From assembly GCF_000218685.1 (NCBI RefSeq), contig NW_006763292.1:186001-250000 (forward strand): DNA of 64,000 nucleotides, given 5' to 3'. Source of the DNA: Serpula lacrymans var. lacrymans S7.9. Lineage: Eukaryota > Basidiomycota > Agaricomycetes > Boletales > Serpulaceae. Of the stretch, positions 1 to 21,155 are shown in pieces (the stretch's first letter is position 1; every line of letters begins with the position of its first letter). A program made the position numbers and the translations under genes. A model generated the notes under the pieces. The model saw only the letters and a program-made list of their open reading frames with translations, was not told the origin of the DNA and did not search any database.

Positions 1-1573
1 TCATCAGGACATTTAATTGATAGAACAGCCCCAGTAGCAAAATCAGAAAAGTCGGTTTCTAGCCGGAACTCTTTGTCTAATTCTGGAAATGCTAATATGG
101 GTGCTGTTGTGAATGCCTGCTTAAGCTTATCAAAAGCTTCTTCTTCTTTGGCGCCCCAGTGCCAGACAATGTCCTTTTTTGTGAGATTGTTCAACGGTCT
201 CATTATTTTTGCAAAATTTTCAACAAATCTTCGGTGAAATTTGCCTAAGCCAAGGAAGGCCCTAACTCCTTTGACGCGAGTAGGTTCTGGCCAATCCAAT
301 ATAGCTTGAACTTTTTCAGGATCCATTCTGATTCTGTCCTGGCCAATTATCATACCGAGGAAGTCTACTTCCTTCACTTTAAAGTTACATTTTTTGGGTT
401 TGACAAATAGGTCCCGTTCCTGTAAGCGTCAAAGGACTTCTTGCACAATGCTGTTGTGCTCAGCCTCATTGTCTGACTTTGTGAATACTAATAAATCCTC
501 AATGTAAATAATGACACAGTCTTCCATATTTGCAAAGATCTTGTTCATCATGCTCTGGAAGGTTGCCAGTGAATTAGTCAACCCAAAGAATATGACAAGG
601 GGCTCGAAGAATCCCTAGTGGCATGTGAACGCGGCCTTCCAAGCATCGTCTTCCTTGATGCGTACATTGTTGTACCCCCATCTAAAATCCATCTTTGTTA
701 GGATCTTGGCGCCAGCCAATTTATCTACTAGCTGACTGATCAAAGGCAGCGGATATGCATTTTTAACTGTGTACTCATTTAAGTAACAATAGTCCATAAT
801 CATACACTTTTTACCATCCTTTTTAGGAATGAAGAACACCGGGGACATTATAGGGCTTTTGGAAGGTCTAATGTAACCCTTCCTAAGCTGTTCATCTATG
901 AAACTTGAAACCTCATCGCTTCCTGGAGCAGAGAGGGGAATAATGTGTCCCTTTCTAGGTCTGAATGTCTCTTTCAAATCTATAGCATGGTCCCAAGGCT
1001 TAGCCTCTGGGAAGTGTTCTGATTTATGTTTAGAAAAGACTTTCCAGAAGTCATGGCACTCGGGAGGTACCAGCCTCTTAATCTATTCCTCAGGTTTTAC
1101 CTCATCATTGCCATCGTCAATTTTATCCAAGGACCTAAGCTTGGCATAAACATGACCAGTGTTTATTCTTTCATCAAGCTTTGTTTGCCGGACGTGACAC
1201 AATTTACCCAAGTCATCACACTCCTGAGAACAATGTGACAATGTGACAACCCCTATCTGCCAGTCAATCTCAGGATTGTGTTTAAAAAGCCAGGTCCAGC
1301 CTAAGATTAAATTAATCTTCCCTAGTTGGGTAGCTTTGGCGGTGACTCGTTCTCTGTGTCCTTGGCACTCAACAACAAAAGAACATTTGTGCGTGATACA
1401 GCCACCCGCGTTAAGTGTACCGTCAATGTTATAGACAGGAATGAATACATCTAACTTGATGAGGGGGAGTCCAATTTGCTCTGCCCAGACCTGATTTATG
1501 AAGATACTGGTTGTGCCTGAATCAAACAGTGCGCTGGTTGGGTGTAGTATACCTCGGGCAAGGTTTTCCACGC
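1..1573 (-). pseudogene. Ty3/gypsy pol fragment: protease, reverse transcriptase, start of RNase H
   Basis: Read on the minus strand this gives an aspartic protease (about 1573-1083) with the active-site string LFDSGTTSIFIN, then reverse transcriptase (about 1010-200) with VFFIPKKDGK, MDYCYLNEYT and TKMDFRWGYNN, then the start of RNase H (FRLETDFSDFATGAVLSIKCPDD) running off the left edge. These would process the polyprotein and copy element RNA to cDNA. It is dead: a stop follows the protease near 1080, another lies at 615-617 and a further one near 430, with at least one frameshift. The catalytic box reads YIED where the family has YxDD. The first residues are missing because a 1,751-bp LTR sits at its 5' edge. 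The missing upstream part is at 10251-11052 on the other strand. The family call is secure; subfamily is not assigned. Confidence 0.9.
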
Positions 1574-3324
1574 TGTTGATGATGAGAACTGTTGTTAGAA
1601 AACCACACACAAAAACAAACTAACACACAATCCTCCCAGATTCCACGGAACTTGTTTATGGGCTTTGCCTCCTAGAACAGTGGGTGCTCTGGTTGTTCGT
1701 GGGGTGGTATGTATGAGGATCCTTCAAAGTAAAACCCAGAGATGTATGGGTGTGGGTTTTAAGGAGGAGGGATAGTTGGAATATAGAAAGATAGGGGCTT
1801 TGTGGCGAGTGTAGACAGGCACTACCTTGCTAATTGTAGCACAAGGTAGGTTTGAGAACGACAATATAACAAGGTTCCCAGTGATAGCAGGCTTGTGATG
1901 CACAAACTATAGTGCTCAGAAGGACTCTAATCAAAAGGGATGACAATAACTTCAAAAGTGGGAAGTGATGATGACAGCAGTTGACAGTGGTAGCAGTGGG
2001 AAGTGTTGTGACCACACTGGATCACAAGCAGCAGAGTAGTGAACTTGAAAATAGAGAAGAAGTCTGGAATTGAGTTTTTGTTCTTTACAAGGTAAAATAC
2101 AGGGGTTTATATAGTAAAAGAAAAGTAGGCTATGCACAGTATAGCTGTGCAAAAAGAATGAGAAAGAACATGAAGGAAGGAATGTACGCTGACAAATCCT
2201 GCATAGGTAGTACAGGATAAGGTTGTCAAAAAAAGGAAAAGAAAGGGATAGAACAATGAATGCTGTGAGTAATGTCACAGGTTTGTACAGCCATAAAGTA
2301 AAGTCCAATAGCAAAAAGAGAGCAGGAAAATCATGATGTCATGGGAAGATACAGGTAAAAAAAGGGCAAGGCAAAACACTATCAGTATCAACACAGTTCC
2401 TTTATTGGCAGTCAGGCATTCTAAAAAATATGTGTCCATAAAAATGATTCAAAAATCAAAAATAATCGCACTGTAAATGAATGTTCTACTGAAAAAAAAG
2501 AAACTGGAGCCACTGGTCCACCACCTAGTCCAAATCCGACAGTTCCATGGCCTCACCAATGGACTGGTTGTGTTGGACCACCTGGTCAAACAAGGGAGGG
2601 AGAGGAGTAGTCCCAATTTGGAACAAGTGAGTCCCAGGCAGCGTGTGGTAGGTGTAGCTGTAGCAAAGACGATGGACAAAAGATAAGTGTACCCAAGTGA
2701 ATGGGACAGCAATGAACATGGGCAACGCAAGGGGATGAACCTTCTCCAGCTCAAAAACTACCCACCCACGCTCCAACCAGGCAAGATGAGCGACCAATAT
2801 TTTGATAGTATATGATGGTAGATCGACATCATAAAGATGGACCTGTTGCCCTATTTGAACCAGCCGCCGGGGCTTTGCTGATATCAGCAGTGGCACATGG
2901 TAGTCAACGGATCGGCAACGGAAGCAGATAGGAAGTGGTGACATCAGAAATGGTGGGGGTGCAAATAAGATGAGGAGGAGGAGGGTGGAGGTGACGAAAA
3001 GGTGGATTAGAGTGGGGATCCAGAAACGACCATCAGGTGAGAATAAAAAGGAGAGGAAGGGGCCCATGGTGGGGCTAGGCAAAGGAAGGGAAGTGAAGGA
3101 AACAACAAAAACGAGGGCGCAATGCAATGTGTAGCCAGTGGCGACGCAAAAATTTGCCGAAATACCGAAATGCGGAAAGTACCAAATGGAAAAGCAAAGG
3201 TGAGCGTGACTGGATTGCTATTTCACGTGGCACTGTGCCTGTGTGGCGCAAAGGCGAGTTTTTTTGAATATTCGCTTCGTTATTGACACCTGTCCATGCT
3301 ACCAATCAACTTTGGTGCATGACA
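1574..3324 (-). repeat. 1,751-bp solo-LTR-like element, left copy
   Basis: It begins TGTCATGCACC and ends ATCATCAACA on the minus strand (TG...CA) and looks identical to 11053-12803 on the plus strand wherever I compared it, including every long open frame. It contains a TATA box (TATATAAACCC) and AATAAA motifs, as expected of a retrotransposon LTR, and no gene I recognise. The flanking tetramers are GCAA (3325-3328, read on minus) and GCGT (1570-1573, read on minus), which do not match each other but do match the flanks of the other copy. This is the signature of an exchange between the two copies. Confidence 0.8.
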
Positions 3325-3723
3325 TTGCAGCCCCCTAGAAATCGACTCACTGCGCTAGCGTATTGGCGGCTCCGAGAGATCTTAACACCATCATCTTCTT
3401 TCATGCGGAAAACCTCATGCAAGAATTTGAGCAAAAGTCCAGTGAGCCTGTTTATCAATTACATCTAAAATGACTTGTATTTTCTGCTGATTTGTTTTAT
3501 GCTGGGAACCAGCTCGAGGCATTGGCCTTGATGGTGTAGGTGTGTTGGGTTGAGTAAAGAATAGGGGGGGAGTTGATTGAAAGAAAAGGGGCAATGATTG
3601 AGACTCGGAGTGGCTACAAGCTGAGCTGATAGGGGTTGATGTTGGTGTCTGAGGGAATGGAGGAATACTAGAAAGATTAGGGACTGAAATTGTACGACCG
3701 AGATGATGAGCATTGTCCGCCAT
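3325..3723 (-). pseudogene. DUF6589-type gene, displaced N-terminal part
   Basis: From ATG at 3723 the frame gives a Pro/Ser/Thr-rich leader, then KIQVILDVIDKQAHWTFAQIL. A one-base shift near 3430 leads to HEVFRMKEDDGVKISRSRQY and then SRFLGGCN, ending exactly at the LTR junction. From memory this WTF...FLxxLF...RSxxHAxxVSxFL pattern is the usual start of large Agaricomycete DUF6589 proteins. The rest of the gene starts at 12804 on the plus strand. If the LTR and one GCAA are removed, the join reads LGGCNSHLPAHILQL in frame. It is non-functional because of the frameshift, the LTR and the displacement. The family name is from memory and needs a profile search. Confidence 0.72.
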
Positions 3724-3868
3724 ATTTTGTTATGAGAGTAGATTCTCTCAATAGGGGCTTGATCTCATAATCTTATTGCAGCGCCACATCAAAATTTTCA
3801 GCACATGTTTGTATTACTAAGGTAAAGTACATCATAAAACTGTTATCGCCGATGGCTTGAGACCAAAG

Positions 3869-3899
3869 GCCTGAGCAACGGTTGCACCCTCGCCAACCG
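3869..3899 (+). repeat. Terminal inverted repeat with hairpin, DUF6589-RecQ element (left end)
   Basis: GCCTGAGCAACGGTTG, seven other bases, then GCCAACCG. The same 16 + 8 bases with the same 7-base spacing occur at 18040-18070 in the same orientation as the sequence now stands, and inverted once the 3325-11052 inversion is undone. CGGTTG and CAACCG can fold into a 6-bp stem. It lies 146 bp upstream of the DUF6589 start codon, as an element end or promoter-proximal site would. Confidence 0.6.
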
Positions 3900-3961
3900 C
3901 GGCAGACCTTCTTTTCCAGAATTTCTCCCTTCCGGATCGATGGTCTGCTTATAGGAGACTA

Positions 3962-4300
3962 GTCATGAGGGATCACTGACTATCATATTAGTCAAATAAA
4001 GCAAACATGTCATGCTACTTGCATTTTTTTGTTGCTTGGGGCTTGGAAAGAGGAACCTATAGAATAAATCTTTATCCATCCAATAAGAATAATGGTTGAC
4101 TGCAAAGTCTTTCATTTTGTTCGCTACATCAGTCAGTTCATAGACTTTGAGTTCAATTCTAATAAGGTCATCTTTTTTCGGTAAATTTGTAGGCCTGTAG
4201 ATAGGAATCAGATACTTGCAAAATCTGCAACACCATTCTTCTTCACTGGGCAATTCAAATTCAGCTGTGGCAGTTGGACCTGCTAAGGGAGTGATGGCAG
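3962..4300 (-). pseudogene. Uncharacterised coding fragment
   Basis: A minus-strand frame of at least 96 codons reads PSEEEWCCRFCKYLIPIY and ends KQQKNASSMTCLLYLTNMIV. The same frame continues upstream of the first ATG to about 4300 (PTATAEFEL), then runs into low-complexity sequence. The CCRFC cluster and charged middle look like real protein, but I do not recognise the family. It lies just outside the DUF6589-RecQ element end and may be a fragment of the gene or transposon into which that element inserted. Confidence 0.3.
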
Positions 4301-4470
4301 TAAGGATGTCAAAGTTTGGTTTGGTTCAGAGGCCTTTTGTTCTGAACCCCAAACCAAACCAAGTAGATTCAGGGGTGAACTAAACCGAACTAGAACTGGA
4401 CCAAGTGAACCTGGTTCAGGTGGTTCTGGTTCTGGTTTGAATCAGAATTGAACCTCCAAACCACCTCATA
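4300..4470. repeat. Low-complexity GGTTT/AAACC-rich inverted repeat
   Basis: Runs such as TTTGGTTTGGTTCAGA are followed about 10 bases later by TTCTGAACCCCAAACCAAACC-like sequence, then by more AACC and GGTTC units. The two halves are complementary and could form a long imperfect hairpin. No coding potential is visible. Confidence 0.55.
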
Positions 4471-4503
4471 TTGTGGGATTTTTCCAAAAATAGTTCAATT
4501 TGT

Positions 4504-4745
4504 GTTCAGGCGTCATGACTGCATCATTCAATGTTATAAACTCCATGATAGTTTGAGCAGAGCTAGAAAGTAGTGGGTGCCTCCTAGCTTGTGTTTTCCT
4601 TTAAAGCCACAATATAGGCAACACCCATGCTTTCTATTGTGTCCTACTGGGCCATTTAGATACATCCCAGGCCATCTGCAGTTGCAAGTGCAAGGAAAGG
4701 CCTTGAGATGCATAGGTAGTCAACAATAATACATGGACTTATAGA
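4504..4745 (-). mobile_element. Tnp2/CACTA-like transposase fragment (copy 1)
   Basis: Homologous, in inverted orientation, to 23085-23335. In this copy the translatable core matches the family string around FLALATADGPGM and GHNGKHECCLYCG, which from memory resembles the Cys/His segment of long Agaricomycete Tnp2/Plavaka-type transposases (family pattern ADGPG...GHxGxxGCRLYC...HKPGGxHYYPALLK). Only about 240 bp survive and the frame is broken. It cannot encode an enzyme. Confidence 0.45.
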
Positions 4746-4878
4746 CATGGACCCATAATGAGACACTACTGAGGATAGCATGTGCAAGGCCTAAGTCAGC
4801 AATGGCAGTGTATTCTGCAAACATGATACTCACAGCTATACCACCTATTCCTCGCCTTCCAAGTCTTCTTCTGATGAA

Positions 4879-5223
4879 TCAATTACCTCTTACTTTTGGC
4901 GCCCTGCAACTTACTGTCTTTCTATTTGTGGTATGTTGTCCAATCTCCTTGTTAGGCTGGGACACCTGTTGTTGCTTTTGTGACAAACCTCCATCAGAGT
5001 GTTTTTTCCTCTTCTTGCGAGTCACCTCACCTGCATTCTGGCGTGCTTCAAGTTTGGCCTTGTATCTTCTTAACTGTGATGATGTCAGCTTGACCAAATG
5101 ACAAGTACCGTCTCTCCATGGTATGCACCACGAGGTTTCTGGATTTCTGCCACTGTCCCAATGATAGATAGATTGATAAAGGGGATGTTTGCAGGCCAGC
5201 TGGACAACTTTGACGCTATGCAA
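4879..5223 (-). CDS. Hypothetical protein, possible remnant
   Basis: A 114-codon open frame with a basic stretch VTRKKRKKHSDGG preceded by SSQLRRYKAKLEARQNAGE, a likely nuclear-localisation type region. I do not recognise the family. It sits between a transposase fragment and an AT-rich inverted-repeat element and may be the N-terminal part of a decayed transposon protein. Confidence 0.25.
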   Translation of the reverse strand: MHSVKVVQLACKHPLYQSIYHWDSGRNPETSWCIPWRDGTCHLVKLTSSQLRRYKAKLEARQNAGEVTRKKRKKHSDGGLSQKQQQVSQPNKEIGQHTTNRKTVSCRAPKVRGN

Positions 5224-5750
5224 AGCAACAATTTCTGTGTCATAATTCTGATAGTCTATCTTTGCTGTTTATCCTAAGACCTTACCTATGATTAAGTAGT
5301 CAATTACCATACTTCATCAATGTAAGATAGAACATACAAAGGCCGATCTTGCAGGCTCAGATACATTGACAACAACAGTTTTTGAGGTTGTCACGCTCTG
5401 CAGTTTTTACATGAACAAATCAGTGAAGAGGCACCACTGCTGAATTATGCACTGACTTTGATTTCTAGAACATCCCCGCTGCTCAAATAGCTGGGCAATC
5501 TCATCTGGCTCCCTGACAATAATGTCTTCCCAGAAATTGAGGGAGCTGTTGCTCCTGTATCAAGTGGCAGTGCCATAGTTATTGATATGTCCTCAGGTGA
5601 GGAAGAAGCACCCATATGAGCCTGTACAAAGTGCTAAATTGTTGAGCTCAAACACAGAAATAGGTCAGTTTACTAATACAGTAGCAATAATGGGATCTGA
5701 CCTCTTTTCCTATCCTGTCTGCTGTGCACAGAAGATCACAGGTGGCAGCG
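5224..5750. other. No gene recognised
   Basis: There are short broken frames on both strands and no motif, RNA or repeat I can name. It may hold degraded sequence from the N-terminal part of the KDZ element that follows at 6310, but I cannot show this. Confidence 0.4.
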
Positions 5751-6300
5751 CATCAGGAAAAACACTTTGGCTATATAGCAGAGGCAATACTATTTATGCT
5801 ATTATAGCTCTCATAGTACTGTAAGTTTGAGCACACATGTATAATATTATGTAGCTAGCCAAGGCATTATAATGGCTTTTATAGCTCTAATAGCCTATAT
5901 AGCTGTTAAGACCATAGTACATATTTATAGCAATGCTTTATCCAAGTATAAGCTGTGACAATGTGTTAAAAAATGACAAGTCCATGAAAGGTCAATATAT
6001 TACACATATATATAATATTTTGTAAGCCTTTGTGGTGTAGTGAATAAATGTGTGGTATGTGGCTGTAGATTAATTGGTCAGCAAAAAAGCGGACCAACAG
6101 GTTGAGAGTTCAAACCTTGTGTGTGTGATTATTTTTTAAAATCAGCCACAAGCTCTCTCATAGCTCATATAGTCAGCCATATGCTATAAGTGCTATAAGA
6201 GGCTATAGCCAACTATAAGAGTACTATAAGAGCACATTGTTTCTTAATAAATGTTGGGGTTTCTATTGCAGCTATGATCACTATAACAACTATATTTGCA
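5751..6300 (+). repeat. AT-rich inverted-repeat element with tRNA-like core (copy 1)
   Basis: Starts CATCAGGAAAAACAC and is rich in CTATA/TATAG words. Its middle (about 6030-6125) resembles a tRNA gene, with an A-box-like segment (GTGTAGTGAATAAATG) and a B-box-like segment (GAGAGTTCAAACC). It aligns over most of its length with 32849-33597, including GTGACAATG, the TATAAT block and the tRNA-like core. The right terminal repeat is not preserved here, so the right boundary is approximate. Confidence 0.5.
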
Positions 6301-6309
6301 ACTATACTG

Positions 6310-9300
6310 CTGTTCATCGCAGGTTCAGATGGGGGGGTTATTTGGACATCACAGAGGTCACACAAGCCGAGTTGGAGCTCTGCTCAGCACTATCAGTGGT
6401 TGGACATGATTTTGAGTGTGGCGCACCTGAAATTTTAGAAACTGAGATTGCAGTACCTTAGTAGAGTGTTGGGGAAAAGCTGTTGTAAACAAAATCTGGC
6501 ATAAGTTACTTAAAATACAACGGTAAAATGTGTGTTGAATCCTTCAAAGTGGATAACAAAGGTAAAGACTCCCAGAAAACTGGGAGTCTGGTCCTGCACA
6601 CCGGCACACCAGCCTCAATATCAAGTCTGTCACATAGACCAACAATTACAGCCACCTCCATAAAGTGGACTTACCATTGTAAGGAAGCAGGGGCTTGGGG
6701 ATTTCTAGTAGAGCAGAGGGCAAGTCTCAGCAACAACTTACCTGGAGGTTCAGGATTTGTCAAGGTTAAGGCAGTTGATGTAAATGGTAAGAGACTGAAT
6801 TCATTTCAGCACTCTGTGTTACTATTGTACAGACACCCAAACATTTCAACTCAACATCATTTCTAGCAATGCTTTTATTGTGTCAGCTCATGTTTGTCAA
6901 GGCGTCATGCCTTGTTCACCCATATCTCCATTTGTGGATGTTACAATCAACACACTGGAGCTGTATTGTGTGGCACATCTGCAAAATCCCCATTCCTCAA
7001 TCAAGGCCTGGGTGAAGACTCTTAGCAATTTGCAAGGGGTAGGTGTCTGTTCAATTCAACTGTATAGGTTGCATGACCATGTTTAACCATTATTCCAGGT
7101 TCAATATCAAAGGTATCTCACAAGACAGCTTTCTATTGCTTTTAACCTCTATCTCAAAGTCTGAGAGTGCGTCAATGAACTTGTACAACATCATCTTCAA
7201 TGTGATTCGCCCAAGTGAAGATTGAAGCATGTCTGTCTGCTATGTACATATAAACTAAAGACTCACTCAAGAAAATAATCAGAGGGACACCCTCCCCACA
7301 TGATGTAGGTGAAAAACCAGGACCTTCATCAGACCTCCCAAGCCCACAGCACATTTGCAGTGATCACTACTTGTCAAGCAAGTTTGTAGACAGATGGGTG
7401 CACAAAGCTTTTCAGAACATGTTGGGAGACACTCAATGCTTTTGTGATACACAATTTTTGGACTTAACAATTTTCTTTCTCCACTTTAACTTTCTTTATC
7501 ATTATCAAACACGTGTGCCCCACGGCACTTCCCTTTGTCCTTTCACTTTCTGGCGTTACACTGCTTTTCTTATTTTTAGCTACAAATCTCTCATGTAGTG
7601 GAGTGGGTCACACAGGCTGCACCCTATGACTCCTGTTGTTTACCCACAACTAACTTGGTCATGCCTTAAGGAGTTTATCCACTCCCACTTCCCTCACACT
7701 TGCCTGTTTGAGTTGTGCGCCAGAGTATCAAAACTTTGGTTGTTACAAATGCTGTATGAGCTGAATAATCTAGCTTTCATATTAATGTGAATGAATTACA
7801 GGACAACACTGAAGATAATCCATGTGCCAGACACTGGAAAAACATGAAGGATAATATAGTGAAGAAAATGTGTAGTGTATTTGATGAAACTAGTATCTTT
7901 TTGGCTCTTTGCCACCACAGTATCTCCCTTGTAGTTGCGGATATGGTGCAGAGTGGGGAACTGTAAATTTTTACCTTAACTAGACTATTTCAATGCTACC
8001 ACTCTGTTCATGTAGAGCCAAGTATCCTCTGGCTGTGGCCGCAGAACTGCCGGATGTGTTTGGTGAAGGGCTCACAGATGGCTTTGACATTAACTGCAAG
8101 TTCAAGACTATATTTTGGAACAGTCCTCTTGGTCCACGGGCCCACACACTCAACCACACATGTTTAGTAGGGGCATTCCACGGACACACTCACAGACACC
8201 TCTGTCAACTGGATCACTTAGCAACATACATTGAAGGTTTAGGCCTGGACTTAGAGGGATGCAAATTTGCACTCTCCAAGTCCAACATCTTGGCATTATC
8301 TGTGTGGTATGCCAGCATATTCCACCAAAAACAAGCCAACAACACATATTTTGAGCACAATGACTCATTTGAAGTCTACTATAATTTATATAAGTGACAC
8401 TCCTCTATGGACTTCAGCTAATATCTATTTTGACTGATAGCTACATTCTTATACAACAACCACAAGCAAGTGTTGAACATCTTGGCTACTGGACTGATTA
8501 ATCTTGCAAAAGCTATGCAAAAGCTTCAAATTGTTGATGAAGGGACTTTTTAGAGCTGGCTACAGGAGGAAAAAACTTGCCTAAACAGTTTATGCAAGGA
8601 GCCAATGGAAGAGACCAGCAAGTATGAAAAACTGCTATCCTGTAAAACTTACATTCTTATCCTCATTTTTACAGACAGTCTCTGGCGGCAGCAACTAATG
8701 TGTTCTCTTCACAGACTCCCACAACACTAGCTACACCAAGTGCAGATCCAACATGAAAGGCAAAAACAGCTCATTGTCATGCACAAGAGAAATATGAGAA
8801 GATATTGGAGGCTGTACAAGCATTAGAAGTGAAGCTCTGTGTTACACAACACTAGACAAATAGCTGAATGCTGGCAGACTGGTGGCCATGCAAAAATATC
8901 AGAGAGCCTTGGATCATCTGGAAGGGCTTGTCTTACCTCATATGTTTGAACTGAAAAAGATGAACTGGTCTCAGACGGGTAAGTAGTGTATTAATGGGTT
9001 TAATTATATTCTAACAAGGCCTCTAGGTTACACTCTATGCAAACATATTGGCAAGGCCTTACAAGCACAATTAGCAACTATTCAGACAGCACTGGACCAC
9101 TACAACCCCTCTGCAATGTGCGGCAGGATATATCATCCAGGCTATGGGCCACTCCGGCTGGCCATCTTGTGATGGACAAGCATTTTAAGATTTGCCATGC
9201 CCATGAAGAAATCAGGTGCCTCAATTTTGAGATCAGGCAGTTTGTAATGTGCCTGCGTGGTAAGAGCATCAAAACAGGACCAGGAGAGAGTACTAGCATA

Positions 9301-9477
9301 GCTCTGACGCACATCTTCTCAATGGTTGCTGTAGGTGTTGGCTGTTCAGTTGATGGGGAAATGGCCCAGGCAGCTGACACTCAAGAACACCTTAAGGACA
9401 AAGAACAGGATGAGGAGGACAATATCAAAATCTCTGCAACCTTTGAATGTATCGTACACATATCTGGAAATACCTGA
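6310..9477 (+). pseudogene. KDZ (Kyakuja-Dileera-Zisupton) family transposase, decayed
   Basis: Recognisable segments in order: GVMPCSPISPFVDVTINTLELY with SIKAWVKTLSNL (about 6900-7035), RLKHVCLLCTYKLKTHS (about 7220-7260), KYPLAVAAELPDVFGE and GFDINCKF (8020-8100), HTCLVGAFHGHTHRHLCQL (8155-8215), GLGLDLEGC with KSNILA (8240-8300), and a C-terminal segment KHFKICHAHEEIRCLNFEIR (9178-9240). These match the typical KDZ order. KDZ proteins are cut-and-paste transposases with an RNase-H-like core, to which the D of GFDINC is a likely contributor. An intron with a good donor and acceptor sits at about 7964-8019. The gene is broken by many frameshifts and by a solo LTR at 7440-7747, and LEGC is followed by K where the family usually has E. 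It is inactive. Confidence 0.85.
7440..7747 (+). repeat. Solo LTR of the ~415-bp gypsy family, internally deleted
   Basis: Aligns with the LTR at 9838-10250: GATACACAATTTTTGGAC at the left, CTACAAATCTCTCATG and GGGCTGCACCCTATGAC in the middle, GTGCGCCAGAGTATC and TTGGTTGTTACA at the right. About 100 bp around the TATA region are missing. The pentamer AATGC lies on both sides (7435-7439 and 7748-7752, the latter starting AATGC), consistent with target duplication inside the KDZ gene. Confidence 0.75.
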
Positions 9478-9655
9478 CACTTCACTCTAAGAATAAGCTT
9501 TTAGGGAATATGTTTGTTAGAATATACTCTAATATACCAATACTCCATAGGATAATACCTCTGATTTGTAAGCCAACCCAGCATGCAGCAGCTATACTAT
9601 GTAAGACGTCCGTGGTTGCATGTCATGTTTAAGATCCTATATTGTATATAACCTT

Positions 9656-9728
9656 GGCCATATAGCTCAATTGGTAGAGTAGCTGGCATGTATCCAGCAG
9701 GTTCCAGGTTCAATCCCTGGTCTGGTCA
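9656..9728 (+). tRNA. tRNA-like sequence, probably a pseudogene or SINE head
   Basis: Shows TAGCTCAATTGGTAGAG (A box), a perfect 5-bp anticodon stem GCTGG/CCAGC around CATGTAT, GGTTCAATCCC (B box) and an acceptor stem with six of seven pairs. The formal anticodon is TGT (Thr). However, position 33 is A rather than the near-invariant U, and it sits among dead transposons. A related sequence is at 48840-48913. Confidence 0.45.
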
Positions 9729-9837
9729 ATATCCAATTTTATCAATGTTTTGTATTGTATATACATATGTGTGTCTACTATACTATATGATAAGCCAGTT
9801 TTTATGGGAGCCAAGTCCCACATTGAAATAAGGAGAA

Positions 9838-10250
9838 TGTTACGATAACACATTTTTGGACCTTTATAATTTTCATTCTCCTCTTTAACCTTTTATTGTA
9901 GCTTTCTCACATTGGGCCATGCGGCACTTTCCCTTTTGTTCAAACTCCTCTTTCTCGCACTGTGCTGCCCTTCTTCTTATATTAGCTACAAGTCTCTCAC
10001 ACAGTGGAGCTAGTCACACGGGCTGTGCCCCCTGACATCATCAGCCACTGCTTTATCAACTGTATAGTACAACATGTACAAACAACCTGTAGTAGTATAT
10101 ATACCTCAATAGATCCAGGAGACTCCTCAGCGAGTCCTCCTGTTGTATCCTCACTAACTTGTTGCAGTCTAAATGGTAACCACTCCCTCATCATCTTTTC
10201 TATAGTTGGTTCTAGTTGTGTGCCAGAGTAACAAACTCTTGGTTGTTACA
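9838..10250 (+). repeat. 5' LTR of Ty3/gypsy copy 1 (413 bp)
   Basis: Begins TGTTACGATAACACA and ends CTCTTGGTTGTTACA. Carries a TATATATACC box near 10098 and AGACTCCTCAGCGAGTCCTCC downstream of it. This is the reference for the solo LTRs at 7440, 20576, 52734 and 56151, and the longer relatives at 27065 and 34155. It is followed directly by gag sequence, so it is the 5' LTR of the element whose pol lies at 1573-1. Confidence 0.85.
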
Positions 10251-11052
10251 TCAGGACTTGCTCTTCATACTCTCTTGCACATTGTGCAAACCCGGACTCC
10301 CATGGATATTGGCGCGGTCCAGGGTGGACAAAAGTGCAGATTCACCTGCTTCAGCTGTGGGCAGGAGGGGCACATGGCCCGAGATTGTACAAACAGAGCG
10401 CGGGCCGCTCAACAAAAAAATAATAACCAAGGGCGCCAGGCGCGCCAATGAGAAGCGGAAAAACCGGATGATCGGCTCAATTCTTTGGCTGGTCGTTCTT
10501 ACGACGAAATCCGGGCTTTCTTCTATGATCAACAGGTCAATGAAATGAAGGCCCAGGGAAAAGAATTTGGAGTGTAGGTCACTTGGGTGCCTTTGCTCCC
10601 CAAAACAATGAAGTAAACCACAACAAAGTGGACCCTGCTCCAGGGTGTTGCACGAGCAGTAATAGAAAGAAGGGGATGGCTCCCCAATTTGTAAATAGAT
10701 TCTTGAATTTGTTATCTGAAGTATGTACTTGTATGAGAAGTTGTGACTGTGGATTTGTCTTGGACCCTCCTGATGATATAGATGCTTTGAGCGCTGATTC
10801 AGTGGGTCAAGATGATGAAGGAGTTGATATTAAAAATACTTACAATACCACCGCTGCACCAGCGTCTCTTTTGGAGCGCAGCCCCGGCGAGACAAACAAT
10901 AGGGTGCTTAATTCTGGTAAAAATAAAATAGAAAAATATGTAGCTTTTGATACTTCTTCTTCTTCTTTGGAGTCACCCCTTCCCAAAATCCCAAGGTGTG
11001 TGTTGATGCGCACATATTTTTTCCAAAAAAACATCCATTTAGATGTTGGCAT
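10251..11052 (+). pseudogene. Ty3/gypsy gag zinc knuckle and gag-pol linker (copy 1)
   Basis: Frame 10206-10451 contains CFSCGQEGHMARDC, a canonical CX2CX4HX4C retroviral-type zinc knuckle (about 10358-10399) that would bind element RNA in the particle. It is preceded by TPMDIGAVQGG. Most of gag upstream of this is deleted, since the LTR end is only about 50 bp away. A second frame (10583-11071) gives the linker before protease, ending MRTYFFQKNIHLDVG at the LTR junction. The second gypsy copy continues this as LDIGVENLAHG, and here VENLARG is found at 1573 on the minus strand. Removing the 1,751-bp LTR and one tetramer rejoins them as DVGVENLAR in frame. Non-functional. Confidence 0.88.
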
Positions 11053-12803
11053 TGTCATGCACCAAAGTTGATTGGTAGCATGGACAGGTGTCAATAACGA
11101 AGCGAATATTCAAAAAAACTCGCCTTTGCGCCACACAGGCACAGTGCCACGTGAAATAGCAATCCAGTCACGCTCACCTTTGCTTTTCCATTTGGTACTT
11201 TCCGCATTTCGGTATTTCGGCAAATTTTTGCGTCGCCACTGGCTACACATTGCATTGCGCCCTCGTTTTTGTTGTTTCCTTCACTTCCCTTCCTTTGCCT
11301 AGCCCCACCATGGGCCCCTTCCTCTCCTTTTTATTCTCACCTGATGGTCGTTTCTGGATCCCCACTCTAATCCACCTTTTCGTCACCTCCACCCTCCTCC
11401 TCCTCATCTTATTTGCACCCCCACCATTTCTGATGTCACCACTTCCTATCTGCTTCCGTTGCCGATCCGTTGACTACCATGTGCCACTGCTGATATCAGC
11501 AAAGCCCCGGCGGCTGGTTCAAATAGGGCAACAGGTCCATCTTTATGATGTCGATCTACCATCATATACTATCAAAATATTGGTCGCTCATCTTGCCTGG
11601 TTGGAGCGTGGGTGGGTAGTTTTTGAGCTGGAGAAGGTTCATCCCCTTGCGTTGCCCATGTTCATTGCTGTCCCATTCACTTGGGTACACTTATCTTTTG
11701 TCCATCGTCTTTGCTACAGCTACACCTACCACACGCTGCCTGGGACTCACTTGTTCCAAATTGGGACTACTCCTCTCCCTCCCTTGTTTGACCAGGTGGT
11801 CCAACACAACCAGTCCATTGGTGAGGCCATGGAACTGTCGGATTTGGACTAGGTGGTGGACCAGTGGCTCCAGTTTCTTTTTTTTCAGTAGAACATTCAT
11901 TTACAGTGCGATTATTTTTGATTTTTGAATCATTTTTATGGACACATATTTTTTAGAATGCCTGACTGCCAATAAAGGAACTGTGTTGATACTGATAGTG
12001 TTTTGCCTTGCCCTTTTTTTACCTGTATCTTCCCATGACATCATGATTTTCCTGCTCTCTTTTTGCTATTGGACTTTACTTTATGGCTGTACAAACCTGT
12101 GACATTACTCACAGCATTCATTGTTCTATCCCTTTCTTTTCCTTTTTTTGACAACCTTATCCTGTACTACCTATGCAGGATTTGTCAGCGTACATTCCTT
12201 CCTTCATGTTCTTTCTCATTCTTTTTGCACAGCTATACTGTGCATAGCCTACTTTTCTTTTACTATATAAACCCCTGTATTTTACCTTGTAAAGAACAAA
12301 AACTCAATTCCAGACTTCTTCTCTATTTTCAAGTTCACTACTCTGCTGCTTGTGATCCAGTGTGGTCACAACACTTCCCACTGCTACCACTGTCAACTGC
12401 TGTCATCATCACTTCCCACTTTTGAAGTTATTGTCATCCCTTTTGATTAGAGTCCTTCTGAGCACTATAGTTTGTGCATCACAAGCCTGCTATCACTGGG
12501 AACCTTGTTATATTGTCGTTCTCAAACCTACCTTGTGCTACAATTAGCAAGGTAGTGCCTGTCTACACTCGCCACAAAGCCCCTATCTTTCTATATTCCA
12601 ACTATCCCTCCTCCTTAAAACCCACACCCATACATCTCTGGGTTTTACTTTGAAGGATCCTCATACATACCACCCCACGAACAACCAGAGCACCCACTGT
12701 TCTAGGAGGCAAAGCCCATAAACAAGTTCCGTGGAATCTGGGAGGATTGTGTGTTAGTTTGTTTTTGTGTGTGGTTTTCTAACAACAGTTCTCATCATCA
12801 ACA
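11053..12803 (+). repeat. 1,751-bp solo-LTR-like element, right copy
   Basis: Same element as 1574-3324 in opposite orientation. Upstream tetramer GCAT (11049-11052), downstream tetramer GCAA (12804-12807). GCAA pairs with GCAA at the inner side of the left copy. GCAT pairs, with one transition, with GCGT at the outer side of the left copy. TATATAAACCC lies at about 12264. The open frames inside are the same in both copies and show no retroelement domain, so I treat them as chance. Confidence 0.8.
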
Positions 12804-15564
12804 GCAACTCACATTTACCCGCCCATATCTTGCAACTATAGTTTGATCATCCTGATGGTTGTCCGAAACTTAATCAAGACATCAGCTCGAACACTATGTA
12901 CTCACCAGAGACTCCTTACCTTGAAATCAAGCCCGCCCGGCCTGCCTTGACTTCCTTTGCTGTCCAAATAGTAGATAAACAGCTCCGGAAGGAGCAGCAG
13001 AAAGTGTTGCAGCCTGAGACAGGACTTGCAGTGGGAAAACAAACATCTGAACCTCAATGGGCGGCAATAGGCAGGACAACATTAGCCAATGCCATGCAGG
13101 CCTTCAAGACTCACCAGCCTCTTCTATGGCACTACATCCTGTCGCTTTCTTCCCCAAGGATCTGTATTCGCAATGGAGTCTGTGTAATCCGCAAATATTG
13201 TCCCCCTGAACCGGTCAGTCATTTCTACAAATAACAGTAAGCGCACACACTTACACATATGCAGATCTGTGCGCATATTATATCAAGTATAGATTTCTCG
13301 CATACCGAGAACACTCGCATACTGCCAGCCAAGTATTCTATCCTCTACTTTGCTTGTGGTGCCCCTAAGACTCTGTTCACCCATGGTTCACGCATTGCAC
13401 ATACCATGGCCTATAGTACAACATATTCACTCCTACACCGGCTATCTGACCACAAAGCCACGTACCTTTTCAACCTGGGCAATGACGAGATACAGTGGCC
13501 AATTATCCAGATGGACAATGTGCAGGGTTACACCCACCAACGCAACTCTCGTATCGGACGAGAAGATATTATGATAACAGGGACTGCCGGAACTGTAATA
13601 GAAGCCCACAATTTTAGTCCTATGGCCCTTGATATAGATGACAAGTTGAAGCGAATATCTGAAAACAAGACATGATAGACCAAGCGCACCACCGGACAAT
13701 AATGTCCCTCCACTGGCTTCAGGTTCTGGTTTTCTATGTTCCTGAACTGGCTCATTACAAAACCGAAGTGTCCCAGCTTATTTGTACGAAAGCATTGAAA
13801 AAAAGACTTTCCCTGAAAGCGACAGTGGCCCATCCACTAGCTACAAACACTTTTAATGAAACTCGGACGACCGAGCTTAAGGAGGCCCTCCTGGATTTTC
13901 TGGCCCAAATCAATCAAACCCCAGACTTCTATAAACAAAGATTGGTCCTGGTGGGCGGGGATGGATTAAATGTATGAAAAATTGGTTCAGTTAAAGAGAT
14001 ACTTACAGTTTCACAGCAACACTTTCGAGCGTCTTGATATAATAGAGCCCATCCTTGAGCTGTGGCATACGGAGTGGACAAATCTCAGCCGTTTGTTTGA
14101 GACTCACTGGGGGGAAGGCATCAGCAATGATCCCTCAACGTTAGGCCACAGCGCTTCACAGATTGGTCGTAAAGCTCCAATCAACCTCAAAAAGGTTGAT
14201 TACTATCCGTGCTTCCACCTGGCGAACTTGGTTCTCGAGACTTGGCTTCTAGACTGCTGGAGGTATGTGGTGACTATTTTACGGGCCCCTGGAAGCATCC
14301 TTACTGTCAACAGGATTCATTTTGATGTCAACAACCTGTTCAAATACTTCTAAGAGCTTGACAAAACTGATTCTCTGCCAAGTCTATCGAGCCTGGAGGA
14401 GATGGCTGTAAAACTGCATCGTCAGTATTCAAGCATGTGGGCATATCATAATGCTATGACAAAACCACATCCTGCCGACCCTCACTTAGTACCTACTGGT
14501 TTGCAATGGGACCCTGGATCTGTACCAAACACAGTCCACACGAGAATTGTTGAAATGCGAGTATCTGTGAAGGTTAAGAAAAGTAAGAAGAAGACAGAAA
14601 AAGAAGTGGAGACTGGCGCACCTTTTGAAGGTGATCAATGCCTTGCTCAATCCATTCTTTTGATGCGAGACAGCCTCATAGCTCGCAAAATGGCCTATGC
14701 AGTGAGTGATGGGGATATTGGACGGGTATATGAATGTCTGAAGGTCAGTACAAGATCACTAGACAAATAAACGGATGACTTACACATGATTAGTTGATGG
14801 TTTTCACGTTTTCCGGGTCATTGCATACAAAGTACACGACTTATCTCCTAGAAATGATATGTAGTCTCAAATATGAATCCAGTGATGCTCTACGCAATGC
14901 AATCATGCAGAACTGGTTAGTAAATCTTGAAGGGACTGCTGGTTCGTTCTATGCTGGAGATCTGTTACAAGAACATCTTAATAACTCTCTACAAGAGTCC
15001 AGAGACCACAACGACGTACCTTGGGACAGTCATTTCATGCGAAACATTGTGTCGCATAATGTGCTGGAGTTCAGCCGGATCAAAAAAGATATGCTGGCAG
15101 AGCTTTCTTTGGCACGACGCAGCAACAAGCATGCTGAACCGCATAATCAGCCCAAAGTAAAGAGGCTGTTACAGACGTACCAGGAGCACAAGATCCATCT
15201 TTTCCGAAGTGGCCGACACTACAGTGGACGAGACAAAGACGTGGACGACTTCACAAGAGGACTGAACAAGCTACTACAAGGTACATTATCAAGATGGGTC
15301 AATTCTACCATGACAACAAGGGGACTCTCTTCGCCATCGGAAATGGAGGACCTGATTGAAGAGGATGACAAAGATGGTGTTGAGGAAATGTATGATACAG
15401 GCCCAAGGAGAAATGGGACCAGTTACATAGAAAACGGCGAGTTGCAAATTGAGTATGATGAGTTGGAAAGCGGGGAACAAGAGGCATTGTGCCAAATGGC
15501 CCAGGAGGAAGCAATCAGTGAAAGTGATGAAACAGAGGGAGAGGGGACCGACCAGGGCCTTTAA
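12804..15564 (+). pseudogene. DUF6589-type protein, main part (putative transposase-like partner of the helicase)
   Basis: Reads SHLPAHILQL, EIKPARPALTSFAVQIV, TGTAGTVIEAHNFS, LVGGDGLN, ILELWHTEWTNLSRLFETHWG, DCWR, then after an intron (about 14742-14792, GTCAGT...TTAG) FTFSGSLHTKYTTYLLEMI, NWLVNLEGTAGSFYAGDLLQ and an acidic tail. From memory these blocks fit DUF6589, a large Agaricomycete family of unknown function. I infer that the acidic positions in QMDNVQG, GGDGL and the WHTEW region could be an RNase-H-like triad, but this is untested. Broken by an in-frame stop at 12839-12841, frameshifts near 13675 and 13970, a TAA at 14351-14353 and the LTR upstream. Its 3' end faces the helicase 3' end about 230 bp away. 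Confidence 0.72.
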
Positions 15565-15791
15565 CACAAACGCTTCACAGCAGGGGGCATGTTCTCTTTC
15601 GCCTGTCAATGTTATCAGTCGCTAATACCAGCCATACCATGAGGCCAGATATACGTACAATTAAATGTTTACCACCATGCTGCTTCAGCATGGTTTGCTC
15701 AGACGCCGTGGCAGCACATTTACGTTTCATAGCATGTGATTGTACTGACTTGAAGTTTGAGGCCAATAGTGGTGTTTGCCACTCAAGGGAT

Positions 15792-17881
15792 CTAAAGGGG
15801 GAGTAATTCAGTATGAGCAAGGAGGCCAAGACAAGACCACTTACATATTTGTGGAGCTTTCTGGCCTACAGACAGCACTCTCCTGTTCAAGTTGGTAGCC
15901 GGGGGTGCTGCTGCATAGTCAATCAGGTAAGATCGGAGGTGTAGGCTTGAAGGCACGCACCTGCAACTCTCTGCTAACCCAGCCCTGATGACACCCATAC
16001 ATGCAGCCATACTCTCATCAGACTCTCCTGCCAGTTCATCGCCATTATCGTTACATTTTTGCCTTGTTTTTTGAGCGCGCAATTGACTTATCTGTCTCTT
16101 AATGTCAGCAACAGATTGCCACAGAAGATTGATATGAGGCACAAGGAGGTTGTTGGTTCCAGCCAAGACTAGAAGGTCAGCGGCTGATTGGAGCTCGTGG
16201 AGGTGGTCGAGAACCTCCTTGATGGTTCGATCAGGGAGAAACGAGGCCGGTGGGAAGATGTCGGTGGTGTCGAGGTCAACAGCCTTCCAGACCTTGTTGC
16301 GTGTCCCAATGAGCCAATCAGAGTATTGCTGACACATGTTTGTGGTAAGTCGATCTGATCGTGTGACTAGTTTCTTGATCACAGCAGGTAGAAGAGGAGG
16401 TGTGTCGGGGGAACACCCTGAGCAGTTGCACTGGGAAGTCTTGGTGATCTGTGGTGTCTTCTTGCATGTAGAACAGAGACATGGTACGTCGGAGGAAGGA
16501 TTACTGAAAAGGTTGTCTTGCTCAATAACTTTGCAGGGAGCCATAATGAACTTGGCTGTGTGGACGTTAAGTTGGTTCTTGATGGTAGCCGCACTGTCTC
16601 CACTGTTGGCCAAGTTGGCGGCTACCATTTCTGATCGGGTAACATACAAGATCCCTTGCAGGTCTTTCACTCTGTTTTTCTGACGTCCAGCTCTGCCTTG
16701 CTTTTGCAGGATAGTCGCAGGTGTCTGAGCTCCCGCTCCCAGGACCACAATGTCAGCTACATCAGGGGGATCAAAACCAACACAGATGGAGTCAGTGGCA
16801 GTGATAATTTGGGCCCTTGGATCCTCGTGAAAGAGACGCCGGGTCTCAGCATTGTACAGCGGTGAGTTGAGCAAGTTATACATGCGGATACGGATTTTCC
16901 GGTCACAATTGGCTGCCAAGGATGCATTATTCCACAGGTATGTGTGCACACGGAAACTAATGTTGATTGTTTCACAGAAGATCATTGTTTTGCGGCGGCT
17001 GTCAAGGATCCAGAGAAGGTCTGGGAATGAGTGGTTCCCTATCCCATGGGTGAGTTCTCGAATCACAATCCGCAAATCGGGACGGATATTTGATCTATGT
17101 ACTAAATGAAACCAGCCTGGTTTGAGCCCTAGAAAATTGCAGACCTGCTGCATTGGTGGGCCAGTGGGCAGTGTTGCTGTCAGGGCAATCATGACAACCC
17201 GGGATGGAAAATGTGAGGCCATATATCCAATTTGTTGGAAGACCTGACGAAAATCATTTCCCCAGGTGTCCAGGAGATGAATCTCGTCTATGGCCAGTGC
17301 ACATACTCGTGTCCGGAACATAGGATGATAGAGTAGCCGCTCAAATGGCTTTGAGCTGAGTTGTTCGGGCGACAGTAGTATCAGTGACACCTGCTCGCTG
17401 ACAATCTTCCACAGGTCCTTGCCTTGCTTTCGCGCTTCTCGTAAGGTATGTGAGTTGATGGCTATGGCATATTTTTTGAATTCAAGTTCCTATAGGCAAC
17501 ATGAGGTAAGTTATGTCATTTAAGCAAAACCTGGTCACTCACCATCTCCTCCTCTAGGCCGTTGGTTGGAAAAACGGCCACCATAGCTGGGTCTTTTGGT
17601 ACAATTTTCTTAGGCTGGCACAAAGCTGGATTATTGGCAAGGGCGGACATGATTAGCATGTACATAAATATGTATCCTGTTTTGCCTCCACCCGTTGGTA
17701 TGAGGGCCATCAAATCCTGGCCATCCAATGATCTACAAACTCCATCCACGATATAATCATGAGGCTCGAAGGGCAGTAGCGGTTTCAAAATTCTTCGAGC
17801 GAGTTCCCTGCCATCCGGTGTATCAAAAATAAACTCTTTCATTACTGTGGGATCTTCATTTCTGGTACGGATCCGAGACAT
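15792..17881 (-). CDS. RecQ-like DEAH-type DNA helicase, apparently intact
   Basis: Two exons, 17881-17543 and 17489-15792, joined by an intron with GTGAGT donor and CTATAG acceptor, give about 678 aa. Superfamily 2 motifs in order: Walker A IPTGGGKTG (about 62-69), AINSHT (motif Ia), AIDEIHLLDTWG (motif II, about 179-190), IALTATLP (III), TMIFCET (IV), TATDSICVGFD (V) and QKQGRAGRQ (VI, about 376-383). After the core comes a possible zinc site, CLCSTC...CNCSGC (about 450-472). RecQ helicases unwind DNA 3'-5'. This one lacks recognisable RQC and HRDC regions, so it is RecQ-like only. It is convergent with the dead DUF6589 gene and inside the same terminal repeats, so I infer it is element-borne rather than a host repair gene. 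The reading frame shows no stop or shift. Confidence 0.85.
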
Positions 17882-18039
17882 TCACAACAGGAAGTGGTAA
17901 GATGTTTTATTCACAATATTTGCTAGCTACATTTCTACATGTACAGTCGTTGTAATGTCCACATTGATCATTTTGTTGATTCATTGTACGCGACGCGTCC
18001 GATCACGTGTATAGGCTTTAAGGCTTGTAAGGCCGAAAA

Positions 18040-18070
18040 GCCTGAGCAACGGTTGACAGGGTGCCAACCG
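18040..18070 (+). repeat. Terminal inverted repeat with hairpin, DUF6589-RecQ element (right end)
   Basis: GCCTGAGCAACGGTTG, ACAGGGT, GCCAACCG; matches 3869-3899 at 24 of 31 positions outside the loop. The loop bases here (AGGGTG) are the reverse complement of part of the left loop (CACCCT). It sits 159 bp upstream of the helicase start codon, mirroring the 146-bp distance on the DUF6589 side. CCTCATGAC at 18081-18089 also occurs, reverse-complemented, at 3962-3970, and would be a direct repeat once the inversion is undone. Confidence 0.6.
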
Positions 18071-18360
18071 ATGTAGCCTACCTCATGACCAAGGTCGGGG
18101 GGTGTCAGTTTCAAGGTAAATTCTATATCTAGCAAGTAAATGTCATTTGCAGTGCAAGATTTTGGCCATTACTCTGCATGCCAATGATTATATTCTCAAC
18201 ATATACCAATTGCACACAAAACAAAAGCAAAAGCTCGGTCTAACCAAATTCACTACAGCAGGGTGCACTAAAACTAGTAGAAGGCGAGTCTATATTAACA
18301 TGGCACACATCACCCATCCCTACCTTCAGCTGGTGTTTATCCAGATCCTTTTGAAACAAA

Positions 18361-20415: not shown

Positions 20416-21155
20416 CTACCAAAGCAAAAACAATACCTCTATAATACAACCAATCCTACTGAAAGGATGACTGATGTGCTTGAGAATGTGCATTAATTGA
20501 TTCTGCCTCACACAGTTGAAAAATTCATTCAGATGGTCTTGCTTGCAAAAGAGTATATAGTGGTCATCAATCTTGTGTAACAACCAAGAGTTAGTTACTC
20601 TGGCGCACACAGGAACACACTATAAAGGTAGTGAATGGGGAGTGGTTACCCCTTAGGCTGCAGAGAGTTTGTTGGTTAACAACAGGAGGACTCGCTGAGG
20701 AGTCTCCTGGATCTATTGGGGTATATATACTAATACAGAGTGTTTGTACTTATGTACTGTACAGTTGATAAAGTCAGTGGCTGATGATGTCATGGGGCCT
20801 AGCCCGCATGACCAGCTCCACTGCGTGCGAGAGTTGTATCTAAAAATAAGAAGAAGGCAACGCGGTGCGAGAAAGAGGAGTTTGAACAAAAGGGGAAGTG
20901 CCACGTGGCACCATGTGTGAAAGCTAAAGTATACAAGGTTAAAGTGGAGAATGAAAATGAAGGAAAGGTCCAAAAATTGTGTTATCGTAACATCTTGTGG
21001 GAACCTTGAGGTAAGTGCTCTTCAGGCTCAAGATTAGGAATAATTGCTTTCAGAGCATTGACTTGCACATAGATGATGGCCCTCTGAGATAAGTTGGCAT
21101 ATGGATTTGAATGTTGCTGGATTTCCTGTCCCAATTTGCCAATAGTGTGTTCCAT
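20416..21155 (-). pseudogene. Uncharacterised ~107-codon frame split by a solo LTR
   Basis: Minus-strand frame from ATG 21155 reads MEHTIGKLGQEIQQHSNPY, then LSQRAIIYVQVNALKAIIPN and EEHLPQG, and is interrupted at 20997. If the LTR and one TCTTG are removed, it continues in frame as SHKIDDHYILFCKQDHLNEF, NCVRQNQLMHILKHISHPFS and a stop at 20416-20418. I do not recognise the family. The clean rejoining shows that it was one frame before the LTR arrived. Confidence 0.45.
20576..20992 (-). repeat. Solo LTR of the ~415-bp gypsy family
   Basis: Complete 417-bp LTR on the minus strand (TGTTACGATAAC...GGTTGTTACA), flanked by perfect 5-bp target duplications TCTTG at 20571-20575 and 20993-20997. Confidence 0.92.

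Follow-up and report, generated by a model that had tools for sequence, protein, structure and literature searches.

What kind of element places a gene of the Pfam family DUF6589 beside a convergent RecQ-like helicase gene in the genome of the fungus Serpula lacrymans? The locus lies in a 64,000-nucleotide stretch of DNA, here called the window, and its features are given in Table 1. A sequence-only reading had proposed that the two genes form a mobile element, and that an inversion and an inserted LTR had since broken it up.

We reconstructed the element by turning round positions 3329-11048 and excising 11049-12805, so that 3329 adjoins 12806. The reconstructed order is 3961..3329 (minus strand) joined to 12806..18080, and the element is 5,908 bp long with the 7.7-kb inversion undone and the 1.76-kb LTR-like insert removed. 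The insert and its twin at 1572-3328 form an inverted repeat of 1,757 nt that is 100% complementary (99.9% in a second comparison). This repeat, a putative LTR, is present in high copy number, with at least 59 matches in the genome (40 of 988 candidates scored), and the inversion probably arose through its two identical copies in opposite orientation. Our reading of the inversion and the insert is supported by L039, a relative that lacks the insert and in which the window halves at 3329 and 12806 are only 3 bases apart (L039 307-912 and 916-998). The joined ends are flanked exactly, on both sides, by the 9-bp sequence CCTCATGAC. The inversion and the insert, as described in the sequence-only reading, were upheld. 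Insertion of the LTR-like repeat, and inversion between two copies of it, split the element at a later stage, and the transposase gene is now out of frame. The LTR-like repeat encodes a 180-amino-acid open reading frame (ORF) and also lies within several other DUF6589 loci that we fetched. The close relative of the window element spans L039 307-3138; most of its DUF6589 gene is gone and much of the helicase region is kept, the stretch missing from L039 being winB 84-2811.

Table 1. Coordinates of the window element and its parts (positions in the window)
Feature	Position	Strand	Remark
Element left end, with the DUF6589 gene as far as the insert	3329..3961	-	Outermost base 3961; TAGTCTCC read inward
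ORF opening the DUF6589 gene	3415..3723	-	Start codon at 3723
Subterminal 20-mer repeat, left copy	3865..3884	-	Within the stem-bearing end
Target duplication of 9 bp (CCTCATGAC), left side	3962..3970	-	In the inverted stretch
LTR-like high-copy repeat within the DUF6589 gene	11049..12805	+	Inverted twin at 1572-3328; 3329-11048, between the two, is inverted
DUF6589 (DDE transposase-like) gene beyond the insert, with its frame disrupted	12806..15564	+	ORFs and profile matches
RecQ-type helicase gene in three coding blocks, converging on DUF6589	15844..17881	-	Profile and protein record mapping
Element right end	17882..18080	-	Outermost base 18080; TAGGCTAC read inward
Subterminal 20-mer repeat, right copy	18036..18055	-	95% identical to the left copy
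Target duplication of 9 bp (CCTCATGAC), right side	18081..18089	+	Exact match to the left copy

The DUF6589 profile matched the plus strand of the window from 13672 to 15564. This copy of the gene is broken, since its pieces between 12806 and 15564 fall in more than one frame, but the codons for D, D, and E are still at the aligned places (13514-13516, 13960-13962, and 14971-14973). The profile gave no match on the ORF on the far side of the insert, which we take to be the gene's own start on the basis of its position and of L039. The helicase gene looks intact. A protein record from S. lacrymans (P0121, SERLA73DRAFT_69962) maps at 100% to 17881-17543, 17489-15963, and 15909-15844, and the motifs GGGKT, DEIH, and QKQGRAGR are all present. 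Among the 34 PDB chains matched by the helicase, 31 are named RecQ, Q1, Bloom, WRN, or Q5, and the other three are named just "ATP-dependent DNA helicase." The convergent 3′ ends, previously put at ~230 bp apart, are separated by 227 bp when measured by ORF and by about 280 bp when measured from the stop of DUF6589 at 15564 to record P0121.

We determined how often the two genes are linked within this one genome (42.6 Mb in 29 contigs). There were at least 108 matches to PF20231, clustered into at least 72 loci, and at least 47 matches to the window helicase, clustered into at least 32 loci. Among the helicase loci listed, 24 of 32 (the window included) had a DUF6589 locus no more than 8 kb away, compared to a chance expectation of 0.91; no DUF6589 match was found within 8 kb of the other 8. 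The linked pairs among the loci listed comprised 22 convergent, 1 tandem, and 1 divergent. Convergent linkage, claimed for the window from its sequence, was therefore seen within 8 kb at 22 of the 32 listed helicase loci of this genome. Using an iterated profile, we found a helicase downstream on the opposite strand in 14 of the 20 best-scoring DUF6589 loci outside the window, and found none in the expected place in the other 6 (L021 and L032 to L036). Since these loci also fed the iterations of the profile, drift may have contributed to its weaker helicase matches.

Linked genes need not be a transposon; the helicases could be host genes, such as telomere-linked RecQ genes, that lie by chance beside a DUF6589 family. 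The accessible text of one study describes fungal RecQ helicases as often telomere linked (PMC4522978), but the loci found here include ones deep inside contigs, e.g., at 2.40 Mb of 5.73 Mb. Target duplications and insertion sites bear on the same question. We searched 21 loci (the window and the 20 best-scoring other DUF6589 loci) for an exact 9-mer outside ends starting with YARNCT, a motif derived from copies that had already been compared and applied equally in mismatched left-right control pairs. Exact 9/9 duplications were found at motif-bounded ends in 5 of the 21 loci and in 0 of 420 mismatched pairs. The five 9-mers all differ in sequence (ATTATGGTG in L028, GGGTCCTCG in L029, CCAGAAAGC in L030, GAATTGAAC in L038, and CCTCATGAC in the window), and all five bounded elements contain both genes, convergent, inside their ends. 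Near-duplications matching at 8 of 9 positions (L024 and L027) were not above controls (2 rows for the 21 loci versus 24 rows for the 420 pairs). L020 and L030 are 96.5% identical across 5,835 columns, after which their flanks diverge. The expectation that aligned flanks of such gene pairs would show target duplications thus held exactly at 5 of the 21 loci; at L020, the near-twin of L030, none was found.

We then joined the flanks of bounded elements, leaving one copy of the 9-mer, and searched them against the same genome. For L030, 11 of 16 other matches crossed the junction, 9 of them over 175 to 182 of the 182 bases. Several of these fell 8 to 10 bases short of the query length; the match to bases 54 to 182 lacks only 2, so the missing bases mostly precede base 54. 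The junction of L038 was crossed by 8 of 18 other matches. For L028, four matches ran from base 61 or 62 to base 181 or 182, which is weak support because they reach just 7 to 8 bases to the left of the duplicated stretch. The same genome search with the joined flanks of L029 and of the window found no junction-crossing site. The paralogous sites of L030 and L038 match straight through the junction in the way expected of unoccupied sites, which implies a single copy of the 9-mer in each. The duplications at bounded ends, the near-identical copies in unrelated flanks (L020 and L030), and the junction-crossing sites for L030 and L038 all argue against chance neighbors, and they bear out the proposal of a mobile element. 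For the five bounded copies the host-gene explanation is refuted, and overall we give it next to no weight.

In L038, the target is an interrupted repeat with many relatives in the genome; one strand holds a tRNA B-box-like stretch, GTGGGTTCAATTCCC, and a scan of the joined flanks with ARAGORN detected no tRNA. The right flank of L029, just past 9616, starts like an L030-type end (TAGTCTCAAACCAGATATTTTGGGAAGG read inward), so L029 seems to lie within the terminal part of a second element of this type.

We next asked what kind of protein DUF6589 is. Searches with it returned 288 related proteins at an E value of ≤1e-5, and PF20231 was present in all 120 of these that were listed; viral contigs searched with the DUF6589 alignment yielded no relative. 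The predicted model (pLDDT, 90.7) had Hermes and the P element as its best fold matches in the PDB and also resembled RAG1, and a Foldseek search with the model gave no match at an E value of ≤0.001. The profile found no related chain among PDB sequences, with one chance-level match (E value, 0.89). Since no PDB transposase was matched by sequence, the link to transposases rests on the fold. The triad is conserved in the DUF6589 alignment: D281 in 60 of 61 sequences, D453 in 63 of 63, and E697 in 62 of 63. From the model and the conserved triad, the DUF6589 protein is most likely a DDE transposase whose RNase-H-like core carries a helical insertion, in agreement with the nuclease core that had been suspected from its acidic blocks.

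The predicted fold resembles those of hAT (Hermes) and the P element in its RNase-H-like core and helical insertion, but these make 8-bp target duplications and, to our knowledge, have no helicase gene, whereas the elements described here have 9-bp duplications and a helicase. We set hAT aside on the length of the duplication. PIF/Harbinger elements share the plan of two genes between inverted ends; they make 3-bp duplications and their second protein is Myb-like, in contrast to the 9 bp and the helicase found here, and they too were set aside. The 9-bp duplications would fit MULE/MuDR. A Pfam scan of four pieces of the window found DUF6589 and did not find the MULE family; the list of fold matches held no Academ or MULE structures and excludes neither.

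We also compared the element with AcademH, which reportedly goes back to Kojima in 2020. A RecQ helicase has been reported in Academ transposons (PMC3627910), and AcademH is described as having a helicase and target duplications of 9 or 10 bp, as opposed to 3 or 4 bp in AcademX (PMC10045372); both statements come from the portions of these papers available to us, as does the occurrence of AcademH in fungi, Basidiomycota among them. In our elements, a RecQ-type/SF2 helicase is encoded, the duplication is 9 bp in all five bounded copies, and a DDD/E transposase is present by prediction from the fold and the conserved triad. In the features that could be compared from these partial descriptions (a helicase gene beside a DDD/E transposase, duplication length, and fungal hosts including Basidiomycota), we saw no difference between AcademH and the window element. 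The claim that the element was undescribed, with no named transposon having this gene pair, was therefore not sustained. The kind of transposon is already known, and what may be new is the link between DUF6589 and the Academ DDE transposase. We infer that DUF6589 falls in the Academ clade, AcademH having been compared by descriptions in citing papers only. We conclude that the window element is very probably a decayed AcademH-type DNA transposon of the Academ superfamily, with DUF6589 as its DDE transposase.

Alternatively, DUF6589 could be a non-Academ transposase that defines a separate, unnamed superfamily and acquired the RecQ helicase and the 9-bp stagger independently. Our literature search found no paper that mentions DUF6589, its nearest solved folds are hAT and the P element, and, from the available part of one report, RecQ helicases have been taken up by more than one superfamily, as in KolobokH (PMC9587614). 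However, the descriptions of AcademH, as far as those extend, agree with our elements in type of helicase, length of duplication, and occurrence in fungi, and we regard a separate superfamily as distinctly unlikely. KolobokH itself, a Kolobok transposon with a RecQ helicase, is a further candidate. Kolobok target duplications are TTAA, whereas those found here are 9 bp long and of five different sequences. KolobokH resembles our elements in combining a RecQ helicase with a DDD/E transposase in a fungal host, and in the excerpts available it is known only from fungi and carries the helicase downstream of the transposase domain (PMC9587614), whereas here the helicase is on the opposite strand; in one fungus, it is located at telomeres (PMC10989895). 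An assignment to KolobokH is almost certainly wrong.

Returning to the AcademH-type element, we examined its ends. The 20-mer repeats start 77 bp (left) and 25 bp (right) inside the element, and the distance from inner edge to start codon is 142 bp on the left (codon at 3723) and 155 bp on the right (codon at 17881). The sequence-only reading had given 146 and 159 bp. That reading had also taken the 20-mer for a hairpin-bearing terminal repeat; the ends can indeed form stems, but the 20-mer is subterminal, the true ends being at 3961 and 18080. Terminal inverted repeats, a further trait expected of AcademH, are present in L028, L029, L030, and L038 and weak in the window, where the outermost 20 bases of the two ends agree at 8 of 20 positions. 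The left end of L042 is near-identical to that of the window and has an unrelated flank. Eight further left ends were listed; their start points prove nothing, because the query itself begins at the terminus, and only flanking sequence, as at L042, is informative.

In minimum-energy single-strand folds of the ends of the five bounded elements, which are diverged from one another, a stem segment opens at nucleotide 11, 12, or 14 in 9 of 10 ends, the exception being the left end of L038. Folding-energy z-scores were below -2 in 8 of 10 ends and above it at both ends of L038 (-0.70 and -1.43). A crude stem scan placed the best stem from nucleotide 11 or 12 in 8 of 10 ends, the window ends differing (14 and 1). 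By the crude single-stem score, 17 to 179 of 200 shuffles scored higher at 9 of 10 ends; only the right end of L030 was unbeaten. Because an element's two ends depend on each other, the stems amount to at most five observations. A stem opening 11 to 14 nucleotides inside 9 of 10 ends may be a new feature.

In the mechanism that we propose, the DUF6589 transposase would bind the element at its stem-bearing ends, cleave there, and insert the freed ends into the target at cuts staggered by 9 bp, and repair of the gaps would yield the 9-bp duplications. This putative catalysis is suggested by the predicted fold and triad and the duplications, taken with what is established about the chemistry of DDE transposases. 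As for the helicase, it would act either on the structured ends, opening or resolving them, or on the junction once insertion has occurred, unwinding it; such a role is suggested by the stems and by the finding of a helicase gene in each of the five bounded elements. In a stronger version, the helicase would be obligate, extruding or unwinding the end stems so that the transposase acts on partly single-stranded ends; we think this rather unlikely, and we know of no helicase-coupled pathway described for DDE transposons. The analysis gives a Pfam family with no assigned function a probable identity, as the DDE transposase of an already named kind of transposon. If the Academ grouping is true, many fungal "hypothetical proteins" could be renamed, and the role of a transposon-carried RecQ helicase would become directly testable.

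Estimates of dN/dS ranged from 0.18 to 1.34 over seven comparisons with few changes, several copies have stops, and these values are uninformative. L035 and L036 (on C5, 27 kb apart) are 98.2% identical across 9,276 columns and, by their sequence, resemble the products of a segmental duplication more than two separate insertions. A repeat of ~450 bp forms an inverted pair in the window at 9837-10279 and 20544-20993 (82% identical) and also occurs near many other DUF6589 loci.
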